DNA of 56,801 bases. It comes from Betaproteobacteria bacterium (GTDB lineage: Bacteria; Pseudomonadota; Gammaproteobacteria; Burkholderiales; Rhodocyclaceae). The position numbers were made by a program, and so were the translations under genes. Positions 6,965 through 45,801 of this stretch are shown here, piece after piece (positions within the stretch are counted from its first letter, which is position 1; every line of letters starts with the position of its first letter). The notes below the pieces were generated by a model. The model ran no database searches. It was given only the letters and a program-made list of their open reading frames with translations, and had not been told where the DNA came from. The stretch covers positions 1-56,801 of the forward strand of contig JAGVUA010000107.1 in assembly GCA_019136545.1 (NCBI GenBank), given 5' to 3'.

Positions 6965-7317
6965 ATCATCCCCCAAGATTTCCGAATCCTACGGTTCCAT
7001 CATCCTGCGCCAGCACCGCGCGTCGCGAACGCCACCCCCATCCAGCGCGATGCGCATCGGGCGGACGAACGCCGAATTGCACGTCAAGGGATGCGCCGCT
7101 TCCCATGCCGTGAAGATGAGTCGATCGCGCACCTTTCGGCAATGAAGACTGGGGCGCCAGAGGAGAGGCAAGCCAGTCGAGACTACGGGCTACAGGCATA
7201 TGGCCTGGACGTCAGGATAACATTACGGCGTACCGATATGCCAGGCGCACGTTTCGAGGCGAACGTGCCGCCGCGCGAAATTGGCGTGTCGCCGCGGCTG
7301 ACTTTGCCGGACGCGTC
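6965..7317. other. Intergenic region upstream of the efflux operon
   Basis: This 353-base gap lies between the stop of citramalate synthase and the efflux adaptor, both read leftward. Short open frames on both strands look like GC shadows and lack ribosome sites. It should hold the efflux operon promoter, though I see no strong -35/-10 pair. It contains one copy of the dispersed 23-nt motif, 12 bases below the cimA stop. Confidence 0.5.
7283..7305 (-). repeat. Dispersed 23-nt motif, copy 1 (intergenic)
   Basis: This copy reads AAAGTCAG followed on the same strand by CCGCGGCGACACGCC. It is one of 14 copies in the window with the same 23-nt frame: an AAAGTCAG head and a tail of consensus YSGYGGCGRSACGCC. 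It lies just below the cimA stop codon. No function is known to me. Confidence 0.8.
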
Positions 7318-8904
7318 TTACGTTGCCGCCCGCTGGGTTTCCCGGTCGCGCAGCAGCTTGTATTCGATGGCGTCGACCAGCGCCTGCCACGAGGCGTTGA
7401 TGACGTCGGTCGATACGCCGATGGTGGTCCAGTCGTCGTACGGGTCGCTGGTTTCGATCAGCACGCGCACCTTGGCGGCGGAAGCCTTGTCCGAATCGAG
7501 CACCCTGACCTTGTAGTCGGTAAGGCGGATCTCGCCGATCGCCGGATAGAAGCGTTCCAGCGCCTTGCGTACGGCCTTGTCGAGCGCGTTGACCGGACCG
7601 TCGCCCTCGGCGGCGGTGATTTCCTCCTGGCCGTCCACCCGGATCTTGATCATGGCCGAGGAGTTGATGCCGTTGGCGGAGGGCTCGTCGACGATGACCT
7701 TGAATTGGACCAATTCGAAGAACGGCGTATGGCGGCCGAGCATCTTGCGCACCACCAGTTCGAAGGAGCTTTCGGCCGCCTCGAACTGGTAGCCCTCATG
7801 CTCGAGTTCCTTGAGGCGGTCGATGATGCGGCGGGTTTCCGGCGAGTCCTTGGCCAGCGCCGGGTCGATGGCGTTGATCCGCGCCAGCACCGTGCTGCGG
7901 CCGGCGACTTCCGACATCAGCACGCGACGGCTGTTGCCCACCAGCTCGGGATTGACGTGCTCGTAGGACACCGGATTCTTGACCACGGCGTCGATGTGCA
8001 TGCCGCCCTTGTGGGCGAAGGCGTGGCTGCCGACGTAGGGGGCCTTGTCGTTCGGCAGCATGTTGGCGATTTCGGCCACCGAGCGCGAGACGGACGTCAG
8101 GTGTCGCAAGGCGCCGTCGGGAATGCACCGGTAGCCGAGCTTGAGTTGCAGGTTGGGAATGATCGAGCAGAGATTGGCGTTGCCGCAGCGTTCGCCCAGG
8201 CCATTGATGGTGCCCTGCACCTGCGTGGCGCCGGCCTGCACGGCACGGATCGAGTTGGCGACCGCCATCTCGCTGTCGTTGTGGCAGTGAATGCCGATGG
8301 CGACGTCCGGAAAACGCTCGCGGACCGTGCGCGTGATCGCGTGGATTTCGTCCGGGAAACTGCCGCCGTTGGTGTCGCACAGCACCAGGCTGTCGGCGCC
8401 CGCCTCGGCCGCGGCGGCCAGCGTTTGCATGGCGTAATGGGCGTTGGCCTTGTAGCCGTCGAAAAAGTGCTCGGCGTCATAGACCACTTCCTTGCCGCGC
8501 GCCTTCAGGTAGCGCAGCGTGTCGCCGATCATCGCCAGATTTTCCTCCAGCGTCGTGCGCAGGATCTCCAGCACCTGATAGTCCCAACTCTTGCCGAAAA
8601 TGGCGACGGCCGCCGTACCGGCCTTGAGCAGGGATTGCAGGTTGGCGTCCTCGGCGACCGAAATGCCGACCTTGCGCGTCGCGCCGAAGGCGATGAGCCG
8701 CGCGTGCGTCAGCGCCAGGTTCGCCGTGCGCGCGAAGAACTCGAGGTCCTTCGGGTTCGAGCCGGGATTGCCCGCTTCGATATAGGACACGCCCAGCGCG
8801 TCGAGCCGCTCGACGATCTTGAGCTTGTCCTCGACGGAGTAGGAAATGCCTTGCGCCTGGGCGCCGTCGCGCAGGGTGGAGTCGTAGATGGAGATTGTCG
8901 TCAT
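7318..8904 (-). CDS. cimA: (R)-citramalate synthase
   Basis: The enzyme condenses acetyl-CoA and pyruvate to citramalate, opening the threonine-independent route to isoleucine; homologues also take part in leucine-type chain extension. The 528-residue product starts at MTTISIYDSTLRDG with the HMGL-like/DmpG catalytic motif DSTLRDGAQ. It keeps the metal-binding HCHNDSEMAVANS and ends with a LeuA-type allosteric domain from about residue 395. I chose ATG at 8904 because the family begins right before that motif; the open frame extends five codons further. The length and two-domain plan fit CimA family proteins better than LeuA. It appears to stand alone. Confidence 0.88.
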   Translation of the reverse strand: MTTISIYDSTLRDGAQAQGISYSVEDKLKIVERLDALGVSYIEAGNPGSNPKDLEFFARTANLALTHARLIAFGATRKVGISVAEDANLQSLLKAGTAAVAIFGKSWDYQVLEILRTTLEENLAMIGDTLRYLKARGKEVVYDAEHFFDGYKANAHYAMQTLAAAAEAGADSLVLCDTNGGSFPDEIHAITRTVRERFPDVAIGIHCHNDSEMAVANSIRAVQAGATQVQGTINGLGERCGNANLCSIIPNLQLKLGYRCIPDGALRHLTSVSRSVAEIANMLPNDKAPYVGSHAFAHKGGMHIDAVVKNPVSYEHVNPELVGNSRRVLMSEVAGRSTVLARINAIDPALAKDSPETRRIIDRLKELEHEGYQFEAAESSFELVVRKMLGRHTPFFELVQFKVIVDEPSANGINSSAMIKIRVDGQEEITAAEGDGPVNALDKAVRKALERFYPAIGEIRLTDYKVRVLDSDKASAAKVRVLIETSDPYDDWTTIGVSTDVINASWQALVDAIEYKLLRDRETQRAAT

Positions 8905-9010
8905 GGCATGAAGTGGCAATGCGTCGCGGGCCGCATTTTACAGGCAGGGGCGGCGGCACGGCCGCGGCGCGTCGATGGGGCGACGGGCGCCGCGGCCAGG
9001 CGGCTTTGGA

Positions 9011-44030: not shown

Positions 44031-44746
44031 CGATGTTTCCGGAAAGCGTCGGCCACCGCGTCGGCCGGCCAGCGGCCGGGCGAGTCAAAGTCAGCGGTGG
44101 CGAGGCGCCGCAGCAGCGCCGTGAAGTCGCTGCGCGGAATCGGCCGGGCGCCGAGGGAGGCGAGGTGCGTGGTTTCCATCTGGCAGTCAATTATGCCGAA
44201 TTCGAGGCGCTTCAGATGTTCGCATAAATGCGCCAGGGCGATTTTCGAGGCATCGCTGCGCTGCGTGAACATCGATTCGCCGTAGAAGACGCGGCCCAGG
44301 GCGACGCCGTACAGGCCGCCCGCCAGCTTGTTGTCGATCCACGTTTCCACGCTGTGGGCATGGCCGAGTTCATGCAGCCGTCGATAGGCGGCCTGCATCG
44401 CCAGCGTGATCCAGGTACCCGTCTGGCCGTCGCGCGGCGTGCCCGCGCAGGCCGCGACGACGGCGTCGAAAGCGGTGTCAAGCCGGACTTCGTAATCGCC
44501 TTGGCGCAATGCCCTGCCCAGCGAGCGCGAGATCTTGAGTTCGGTCGGCAACAACACCATGCGCGGATCCGGACTCCACCAGAGGATGGGTTCGCCGGCG
44601 ATGTACCAGGGGAAGATGCCGAGCCGGTACGCGGCGAGCAGCCATTCAGGCGAAAGGTCGCCGCCGGCCGCCAGCAAGCCGTTGGGTTCGGCAAGCGCGG
44701 TGGTGACGGGCGGGAAGACAGGGTCCGGCGGCAGCCATGGGATCAT
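44027..44746 (-). CDS. aat: Leucyl/phenylalanyl-tRNA-protein transferase (Aat)
   Basis: Aat adds Leu or Phe to N-terminal Lys or Arg, creating N-degrons for ClpS. The 239-residue product carries [20 protein letters not shown] and [19 protein letters not shown] near residues 25-65, [17 protein letters not shown] near 135 and [18 protein letters not shown] near 155. All are family signatures. It overlaps fbpC upstream and bpt downstream by 4 bases each, so its transcription probably starts at the fbpC promoter. Confidence 0.95.
44087..44109 (+). repeat. Dispersed 23-nt motif, copy 13 (in aat, antisense)
   Basis: Tail CGGTGGCGAGGCGCC. It is antisense to aat; the codons read [14 protein letters not shown] at the C-terminal end, closely matching RRLAAADFQ encoded by copy 8 in mnmC. 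Confidence 0.75.
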
Positions 44747-45801
44747 CCTTGGAACGCTACCACATGATCGACGTCGAGCCGCAGGCCGATCCGTTCGCCG
44801 ATGGCGTGGTTGTGGTGCGAAGGCACCAGGGAGAGGACTTGCGCGCCGGACGGCAGGCGCAGGGTGTAGAGAAACTCGGCGCCGCGAAACGCCTTGGCGA
44901 CGACTTCGGCGCGCAGGGTGGCACCGTCGTCGTGCACCAGATCATCCGGCCGCAACAACACTTGCAGGCGATCGCCGGAGGTGCTGCCCATCGGCAGGTG
45001 GCTGGTGAGGCGTCCGAGTTCCACTTCGACGCTGCCGTCGGCCAGCAGCGTGCCGGGCAGGAAGGCGCCCTGGCCGACAAAATCGGCGACGAAGCGCGTT
45101 GCCGGCCGGTGGTAGAGGTCGTAGGGCGCCGCCCATTGCTCGATGGCGCCCGCGCGCATGATGCCGACGACGTCGGCCACCGCAAAGGATTCGTGCTGGT
45201 CGTGAGTGACGAGGATGGCCGTGGTGCCGGTGGCCTTGAGGATGTCGCGCACTTCCAGCGACAGGCGCTCGCGCAATTCGACGTCGAGGTTGGAGAAGGG
45301 CTCGTCGAGCAGCAACAGGCGCGGCTTGGGCGCCAATGCCCGGGCGAGGGCGACGCGCTGTTGCTGGCCGCCCGAAAGTTCGTGCGGAAACTTGTCGTCC
45401 TGACCGGTCAGGCCGATCAGCTCGAGCAGTTCGGCGACGCGTTGCCGGCGTTCCGCCGCGGCTGACTTTGCGCGATGGCGATCTAGGCCGAAGGCGATGT
45501 TGTCGACGACCGACAGGTGAGGGAACAAGGCGTATTCCTGAAACACCATGCCGATCTGGCGGCGCTCGGGTGGCACCATGCGCGTCGCGCTGGCGACCAC
45601 TTCGCCCTCGATGGCGATGCTGCCGGCGCTGGGTTGCTCGAAGCCCGCGATCAGCCGCAGCGCCGTGGTTTTGCCGCAGCCTGAAGCGCCCAGCAGACAG
45701 CCGATCTGTCCGCGCGGCAGCGACAAAGACAAGGCGCGGACGACGGCGTGCTGGCCGTAGGCATAGTCCACGCGATCGAGTTGAAGCAAGTCGGCAGTCA
45801 A
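44743..45801 (-). CDS. fbpC: Ferric iron ABC transporter ATPase (FbpC)
   Basis: This 352-residue ATPase energises Fe3+ import with FbpB and FbpA. It has Walker [21 protein letters not shown] near residue 40, signature [18 protein letters not shown] near 140, Walker [13 protein letters not shown] near 160 and the His switch in [11 protein letters not shown]. The C-terminal TOBE-like regulatory domain starts about 240 ([11 protein letters not shown]). The start is uncertain: TTG at 45801 gives a natural N-terminus, while the open frame extends to a TTG at 45822. It is divergent from fbpB and overlaps aat. Putrescine or sulfate importers are less likely given FbpB and FbpA. Confidence 0.88.
45447..45469 (-). 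repeat. Dispersed 23-nt motif, copy 14 (in fbpC)
   Basis: Tail CCGCGGCGGAACGCC. It is in the fbpC sense direction, reading KSAAAERR, in the helical region before the ABC signature. This is the last copy toward the right; none was seen from 45.5 kb to the end. Confidence 0.75.

Follow-up and report, generated by a model that had tools for sequence, protein, structure and literature searches.

What is a short DNA element that recurs 14 times within 38 kb of a Rhodocyclaceae genome, mostly inside genes of unrelated function? The stretch that raises this question (the window) has 56,801 nucleotides, and it is the entire contig JAGVUA010000107.1 (C106) of the 162-contig, 3.40-Mb assembly GCA_019136545.1 (G000) from a Betaproteobacteria bacterium. 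A sequence-only reading of the window had described the element as the head AAAGTCAG with a conserved tail, and had offered four explanations for it: an uptake sequence, a nucleoid-protein site, a methylation or repair site, or relics of a mini-element. Among these four, the uptake sequence fits our results best, and we consider it highly probable, from the patterns described below, that the element is a DNA uptake sequence.

The motif and its excess

In the window, AAAGTCAG occurs 14 times, against a mean of 0.68 and a largest count of 3 in 100 dinucleotide shuffles. Genome-wide, G000 holds 663 copies (338 forward and 325 reverse), whereas the reversed-pattern control gives 33 (12 and 21). 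The head extended by GGCG, AAAGTCAGNNNNGGCG, is found 318 times (160 and 158 by strand), with 0 and 0 in the control. The full motif that begins with this head is asymmetric, discontinuous and about 25 nt long, and can be written SAAAGTCAGCCGTGGCGRCACGCCG. A logo was drawn from 112 aligned sites in 448,370 bases of G000 (20 stretches and the window). Information fills positions 0 to 24, fades to a trace at -1 and 25 and is absent further out. The logo reads S AAAGTCAG CCGT GGCG RC ACGCCG, that is, an 8-nt head, which is invariant since the search itself fixed it, a GGCG block and an ACGCCG block. When a matrix from the same sample was used to scan for imperfect heads, 125 sites, 101 of them with the exact head, reached a score of 14 or more, and block-shuffled sequence gave 0.

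Genes in the G000 sample were defined with a home-made model based on codon usage (428 genes, 91.2% coding). In these genes, AAAGTCAG occurs 84 times, compared with a mean of 5.9 and a largest count of 12 in 100 synonymous-codon shuffles, and the head combined with ACGNCG occurs 41 times, compared with 0.8 and a largest count of 4. Among the ranked 8-mers, AAAGTCAG shows the greatest excess over synonymous shuffling (z about 31). No comparable extended logo or tail was seen for the other high-ranking k-mers checked (five in G028, six in G216, two in G000 and one in G015, some of them with few sites).

Copies in the window

All 14 heads were found where the sequence-only reading had placed them, nine on the plus strand and five on the minus strand. 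The claim that the same tail follows every head was examined with a weight matrix trained solely on the 98 sites outside the window. The tails of 13 of the 14 copies beat 7.8, the 99.9th percentile of 40,000 random positions, and therefore the link between head and tail is real without selection by eye. The claim does not extend to the copy at 34912-34937, whose tail scores only 5.8. Compared with a loosened form of the consensus first proposed, the copies at 29358, 32818 and 34914 have three mismatches and that at 15263 has two. The sites in the window, with one imperfect copy, are as follows (total score in brackets):

7281..7306, minus strand: intergenic motif copy, some 12 nt beyond the leuA stop (33.8)
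11520..11545, minus strand: motif copy in gene 10660-12042, chorismate-binding and MenF-like (36.4)
11725..11750, plus strand: motif copy in the MenF-like gene 10660-12042, antisense to the gene (28.5)
12633..12658, plus strand: motif copy in an AMP-binding (MenE-like) gene (33.2)
13546..13571, plus strand: motif copy in the MenC-like gene 13297-14313 (34.4)
15261..15286, minus strand: motif copy in the UbiA-family (MenA-like) gene 15156-16076 (32.6)
24631..24656, plus strand: motif copy in the glutamyl-tRNA synthetase gene, gltX (28.9)
26416..26441, plus strand: motif copy in mnmC (34.4)
29357..29382, plus strand: motif copy with a weaker tail in gene 28640-29848 (28.0)
32584..32609, minus strand: imperfect copy, AAAGTCGG head with a good tail, in the recJ-like gene 31024-32718 (18.3)
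32817..32842, plus strand: motif copy, intergenic, in a divergent gap of our gene model (31.8)
34912..34937, minus strand: head with a poor tail in an FtsX/MacB-type permease gene (22.5; tail 5.8)
35666..35691, plus strand: motif copy where the ABC-transporter ATPase gene 34999-35667 ends, flanked by convergent genes (37.6)
44086..44111, plus strand: motif copy in aat, the Leu/Phe-tRNA-protein transferase gene (31.0)
45445..45470, minus strand: motif copy in gene 44743-45771 (33.5)

The description "mostly inside genes" holds for 11 copies in our own gene model, and three copies (7281-7306, 32817-32842 and 35666-35691) lie outside. The peptides RRLAAADF in MnmC and RRLATADF in Aat had been read correctly, and the copies are indeed found in both orientations and in several reading frames. 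The argument that selection acts on the DNA and not on the peptides is borne out by this variety, by the synonymous-codon null, and by the mnmC copy, which outlasts a change of its peptide.

By Pfam, window positions 9011-16800 look like a menaquinone synthesis cluster (thiamine pyrophosphate enzyme, chorismate binding, AMP-binding, MenC, enoyl-CoA hydratase, UbiA and UbiE). Inside this cluster, five motif copies stand in a stretch of 3.8 kb, and the guanine-cytosine (GC) content is 73.7% over 10001-15000. A DNA search for positional conservation with window positions 10660-16800 gave partial matches only, and a plasmid search with gltX gave no match.

Origin of the copies by substitution

The span of the motif is free of gaps in homologues of gltX (34 of 34), mnmC (79 of 79) and gene 28640-29848 (10 of 10). 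For two more motif-bearing genes the only homologues are remote, at 25-40% identity in the examples seen, and gaps occur in 3 of 4 and 5 of 13 of them; no homologues were obtained for the remaining five motif-bearing genes of the window. Where good orthologues are at hand, the motif arose by substitution and not by insertion.

The mnmC motif is intact at the same site in G004 (Rhodocyclaceae fen_999, L035) and G001 (NC_groundwater_1816, L036), and the encoded peptide differs between the motif-keeping species (three species of the genus in all). The site is without the motif in L037, L038 and L040, and in L039, L041 and L042, which belong to other lineages, it carries the dialect C form described below, AAAGTCGG with an ACGGCG end. 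At the gltX site, a degenerate form stands at the same place in L035, L036 and L096 of the same genus.

Placement and orientation

Among the 112 copies in the G000 sample, 84 are inside genes (47 sense and 37 antisense), and 28 are outside genes or at their edges, where 9.9 were expected. The single-contig, 3.15-Mb chromosome of G015 was sampled in 20 evenly spaced 20-kb stretches (400 kb). These hold 66 heads, 1-7 per stretch and with no over-dispersion, of which 26 are outside genes against 9.1 expected. Assigned to leading and lagging strands by local GC skew, the copies divide 59/53 in G000 and 29/37 in G015, where the skew is weak. Of 26 classifiable intergenic copies in G000, eight are in convergent gaps, though these make up 9% of intergenic bases, and two are in divergent gaps, though these make up 35%. 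Divergent gaps are thus poor in copies, and therefore promoters seem to be avoided.

Dialects and distribution

The motif of the window's genus (g1) is here called dialect A. Dialect B, seen in G015, is AAAAGTCAGTCNCNGCRGNACGGCG, and dialect C is AAAGTCGGCGCTGGCGNNACGGCG. The form AAAGTCAGN10ACGNCG was counted in 395 genomes of the Rhodocyclaceae. In genus g1, four of six genomes have 114-321 copies and G003 and G005 have 3 each; in g11, 13 of 16 have 157-452, with 44 in G330, 21 in G376 and 5 in G216; in g24, one of two has 73 and the other 1; elsewhere the count is 0-5. By AAAGTCAG-form counts alone, the motif is seemingly confined to three genera, and dialect C widens this range. AAAGTCGGN10ACGSCG gave 15 matches in 9 of 80 named loci, none across the 448 kb sampled from G000 and a single one across the 400 kb from G015. 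Dialect C, whose logos were drawn from a few chosen stretches, reaches at least 50 copies in 47 of the 395 genomes: 18 of 22 in g2, 12 of 19 in g20, all 9 in g65, all 4 in g47, and further G013 (643 copies), G043 (530) and the g11 genomes G365 and G398. Low counts of dialect C are seen in the rest of g2 and g20 (0-33), in other g11 and g1 genomes (0-6), in G028 (12) and in carrier-free genera (0-8).

By a hand tally from the two form listings, the threshold of 50 copies of either form is reached by 63 of 395 Rhodocyclaceae genomes (range 50-643), which belong to 9 of 68 genera; reversed controls stay at 0-4 in each genome. In a set of 300 genomes from the order, nine of them Rhodocyclaceae, the other families have 0-4 copies except G475 with 14. 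A search of a viral collection with the dialect A/B form found it in 7 contigs. The closest named relatives of the window's MnmC are metagenome-assembled genomes (MAGs) of Rhodocyclaceae or Rhodocyclales. Dialect C is present, with 1-3 matches per locus, in MAG records labelled Propionivibrio, Rugosibacter and Sulfuritalea, which are genera with cultured strains.

The tail of dialect A has short inverted arms, GGCG...CGCC, and a terminator hairpin was rejected as their explanation, given that dialects B and C have not preserved them. In ten Dechloromonas/Azonexus-type loci, picked for having matches, 16 AAAGTCAG heads were found where base composition predicts 2.5, several of them at matching positions in related loci; the tail is absent, and these heads were not counted as the motif.

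A few copies also occur in genomes of non-carrier genera or families (G061, G046, G060 on contig C50, G124, and G475 on contig C45). Many of these agree with the dialect C or B consensus, and some are clustered on one contig; perhaps they are traces of DNA taken in from carriers, or belong to mis-binned contigs. In the g11 genomes G365 and G398 the AAAGTCAG and AAAGTCGG forms occur together and about equally often (176/190 and 157/126), perhaps a dialect switch in progress, or else mixed bins. These genomes resemble that of Simonsiella muelleri, which is reported to carry two dialects (PMC3630211).

Dialects on the MnmC tree

The MnmC tree was built by a quick method from 51 rows, namely 40 of the 80 named loci and 11 whole-genome loci, and its alignment includes the motif's own codons. 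L046, L087, L088 and L110 were left out, L087 and L088 for internal stops and the other two without need. The label 'x' marks a locus without a dialect match or a low-copy genome, and for a short locus it is weak evidence of absence; each dialect C label is based on 1-3 matches in its locus. Among the labelled rows, dialect A forms one group (99% in the Shimodaira-Hasegawa-like approximate likelihood-ratio test, SH-aLRT), and so does dialect B (100%). Dialect C stands in two places, one with the rows labelled Propionivibrio, Rugosibacter and Sulfuritalea and one near A (L039/L041/L042), and therefore C may be the older dialect. The three labels need 2 changes on the tree, which is the minimum, whereas shuffled labels need 8.3 on average and were as low in 0 of 200 shuffles; C alone needs 2. 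The dialects follow phylogeny around a shared core. The nearly motif-less G216 falls inside the B group and L037 (G003) inside the A group, a position that reads as secondary loss.

Comparison with known systems

According to PMC12616744, uptake motifs are known from only two bacterial families. The Neisseriaceae DNA uptake sequence (DUS) is described there as continuous, up to about 13 nt long, with a consistent CTG core, and the uptake signal sequence (USS) as a core followed by separate downstream blocks of lower conservation, the whole measuring up to 32 nt and existing in two types. Neisseria has about 1900 copies of a 10-mer DUS, and DUS dialects around a shared core follow phylogeny (PMC3630211). 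DUS are read by the minor pilin ComP, and ComN/PpdA has been proposed as the USS receptor in Pasteurellaceae.

On the one hand, the Rhodocyclaceae motif is like the DUS in having many copies (hundreds to thousands for DUS) and clade-following dialects around a shared core, and most of its carriers have a pilin with the PF16732 ComP_DUS domain, as do most non-carriers. On the other hand, it is discontinuous, about 25 nt long and has a GC-rich tail, and the complementary strand of the head has CTG in dialects A and B, whereas dialect C has CCG there (CCGACTTT). Since dialect C is without CTG, the motif is not a DUS dialect. With the USS it shares discontinuous downstream blocks, and the core of the Hin-USS, AAGTGCGGT, has AAGT in common with the head (PMC12616744), which may be chance. 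The downstream blocks are AT-rich in the USS and GC-rich, ending in ACGSCG, in the Rhodocyclaceae motif; the inner USS core GCGG is absent from the AAAGTCRG head; and USS hosts are Gammaproteobacteria, whereas the present motif is found in Betaproteobacteria. Considering that the head lacks GCGG and the tail is GC-rich, the motif is not a USS. As neither a DUS dialect nor a USS, it is on present evidence a third, separate system of the same kind.

The motif is over-represented, asymmetric, unpolarised, widespread and substitution-born, its dialects are bound to clades, and it is nearly absent from sister families. This combination matches what is known of DUS (PMC3630211) and USS (PMC12616744). 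We found no report of the motif in the literature on uptake sequences in Comamonadaceae, Burkholderiales, Rhodocyclaceae, Rhodocyclales, Propionivibrio and Betaproteobacteria, a scope outside which most subscription literature fell. The titles that came up there deal with Neisseria, Haemophilus or unrelated topics, and among the 20 papers listed out of 950 with AAAGTCAG in their text, none has a title on this motif.

Alternative explanations

The strongest competing explanation makes the motif the chromosomal binding site of an intracellular protein that requires such sites in the hundreds, such as a nucleoid organiser, a condensin loader, a division regulator or the like. The long, asymmetric logo looks like a protein site, the copies are spread round the chromosome, and the dialects could track a coevolving DNA-binding protein. 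Across the 20 stretches of G015, however, there is no polarity or domain bias; near loss in G216, G003 and G005 would be odd for a chromosome organiser; and most G000 sites are intragenic, with divergent, promoter-bearing gaps avoided. We therefore regard this explanation as unlikely. Signals of the Chi, KOPS (FtsK orienting polar sequences), matS and Noc/SlmA types are polar or confined to domains. The present motif is like them in forming many short sites per chromosome, but it is neither polar nor domain-confined at the resolution tested. In particular, a Chi-type recombination or repair hotspot or a KOPS-type translocation signal would suit a short, frequent and, in G000, mostly intragenic element. 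The copies show no orientation skew by local GC skew, and a bipartite motif of 25 nt is far from Chi- and KOPS-type recognition sites of about 8 nt, so we hold such a signal to be very improbable. A polar repair or partition site is disfavoured by the same unpolarised distribution, and the methylation site that the sequence-only reading had listed would presumably not need an excess of a 25-nt motif structured into dialects.

Relics of a mobile mini-element, or of a repeat like the repetitive extragenic palindromic (REP) sequences, bacterial interspersed mosaic elements (BIME) or miniature inverted-repeat transposable elements (MITE), would suit the dispersal and similarity of the copies and the inverted arms of the dialect A tail. 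REP/BIME and MITE repeats are inserted units, mostly palindromic and between genes. The motif shares with them a dispersed occurrence in similar number, but it was born by substitution where checked and is mostly intragenic in G000 (84 of 112). Gaps at the motif are found in 0 of 34, 0 of 79 and 0 of 10 homologues of the three genes with good orthologues, which contradicts insertion; moreover, conservation ends at about 25 nt and the arms have not been preserved in the other two dialects. We give such relics scarcely any credence. There is also the view that the excess is an artefact of composition or codon usage, considering that high-GC genomes favour some k-mers and that other GC-rich 8-mers exceed the codon null, though less so. 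The sequence-only reading had itself raised the doubts that the frequency might equal a codon-aware background and that the tails might be uncorrelated with the head. The count of 84 against 5.9, with 12 as the largest of 100 shuffles, and that of 663 against 33 in the reversed control dispose of the former, and the tail linked to the head under the held-out matrix disposes of the latter; the other excess k-mers checked have no such tail. An artefact can accordingly be treated as practically negligible.

Proposed mechanism

If the motif is a DNA uptake sequence, a putative surface DNA receptor on a type IV pilus would bind it in free DNA, so that DNA of the cell's own kind would be imported preferentially, with pilus retraction and ComEC bringing the bound DNA in. 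Homologous recombination would then copy motif-bearing alleles more often than motif-less ones, and the biased uptake could accumulate and maintain the motif by molecular drive, mostly where harm is small. A dialect change would follow a change of the receptor and would restrict transformation between clades, and once the receptor or competence was lost the motif would be free to decay, as may have happened in a few members of carrier genera.

Uptake machinery and receptor search

The machinery was surveyed in 51 chosen genomes, comprising 20 carriers (at least 50 copies) and 31 non-carriers (fewer than 50). A ComEC match is present in 49 of the 51 and is above the cut-off in 47 (18 of 20 carriers and 29 of 31 non-carriers). 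The ComP_DUS-domain pilin is present in 46, namely 16 of 20 carriers and 30 of 31 non-carriers, and the matches missing from carriers fall in incomplete genomes. As discriminating genes, both were dropped for being near-universal in this set, and they were kept as machinery only. In G000, the gene of the ComP_DUS pilin comes first in a minor-pilin operon that also encodes a GspH/FimT-like pilin and PilW. Pilin clusters that we read as like those of the mannose-sensitive haemagglutinin (MSHA) occur in G000, G015 and G028, and none was among the pattern-picked pilins of G216. MSHA pili were rejected as the receptor carrier: MshL is above the cut-off in 21 of 31 low-copy genomes, including G216, and not in the strong carrier G302.

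Several results weigh against the uptake reading. The rates in carriers and non-carriers are alike, and therefore ComEC and the ComP_DUS pilin do not track the motif; ComEC was, moreover, the sole competence gene searched. ComEC is kept in G216, which has only 5 motif copies, and in G005, which has 3, and it has no match in the carrier G004, a genome 85% complete. ComP_DUS scores of 58-99 bits are all in non-carriers, those of carriers being 33-52, and four incomplete carriers gave no match to this pilin. Among solved structures, the G000 pilin matches 16 chains, all from other pilins such as geopilin, PilE and PilA, and none of those listed is named ComP. When the ComP_DUS pilin regions of 18 genomes were compared, a PilE-like pilin was seen in each and a pattern-picked FimT-like pilin in 16, with or without the motif, and no receptor emerged. 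At one copy per 5 kb, the motif is sparser than the DUS of Neisseria. Close inverted pairs, which are frequent among DUS and USS and act there as transcription terminators, are rare, with 3 of 91 neighbour pairs less than 300 nt apart and 2 of these inverted. The density of the motif is 2.8, 2.0, 2.2 and 1.4 per 10 kb from the least to the most typical quartile of codon usage; because it did not rise, this proxy gave no sign of the enrichment in core genes that DUS are known for. It is also a limit of this reading that we infer uptake from sequence patterns.

A stand-alone type IV pilin (Pfam Pilin, N_methyl) at window positions 47507-48013 adjoins a solute-binding protein gene and is a possible extra receptor candidate. 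G003 (Zoogloeaceae Jx357_bin26, L037), a 1.4-Mb genome in the window's genus that is 80% complete, has 3 copies and no ComEC match, a pattern that weakly fits loss of competence in a reduced genome. The motif-less genomes G020, G062, G044, G071, G041 and G014, from other Rhodocyclaceae genera, have the top ComP_DUS scores (85-99 bits), and these genera may have an unrelated uptake motif.

Implications

Taken as a whole, we think it likely that the Rhodocyclaceae hold a third, independently evolved system of self-recognition in DNA uptake. It would use a GC-rich, bipartite code of about 25 nt with at least three dialects in nine genera, with two-dialect genomes, repeated losses and consensus footprints in non-carriers, and in environmental communities the dialects would divide the flow of genes. 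The receptor of this system is probably a minor pilin of type IV that has yet to be recognised in this role. If this is true, a third family, of free-living bacteria, would allow the reasons for the evolution of uptake sequences to be tested independently, along with receptor-motif coevolution and dialect switching. The motif would also provide a DNA-level marker of gene-exchange partners in groundwater and wastewater communities.

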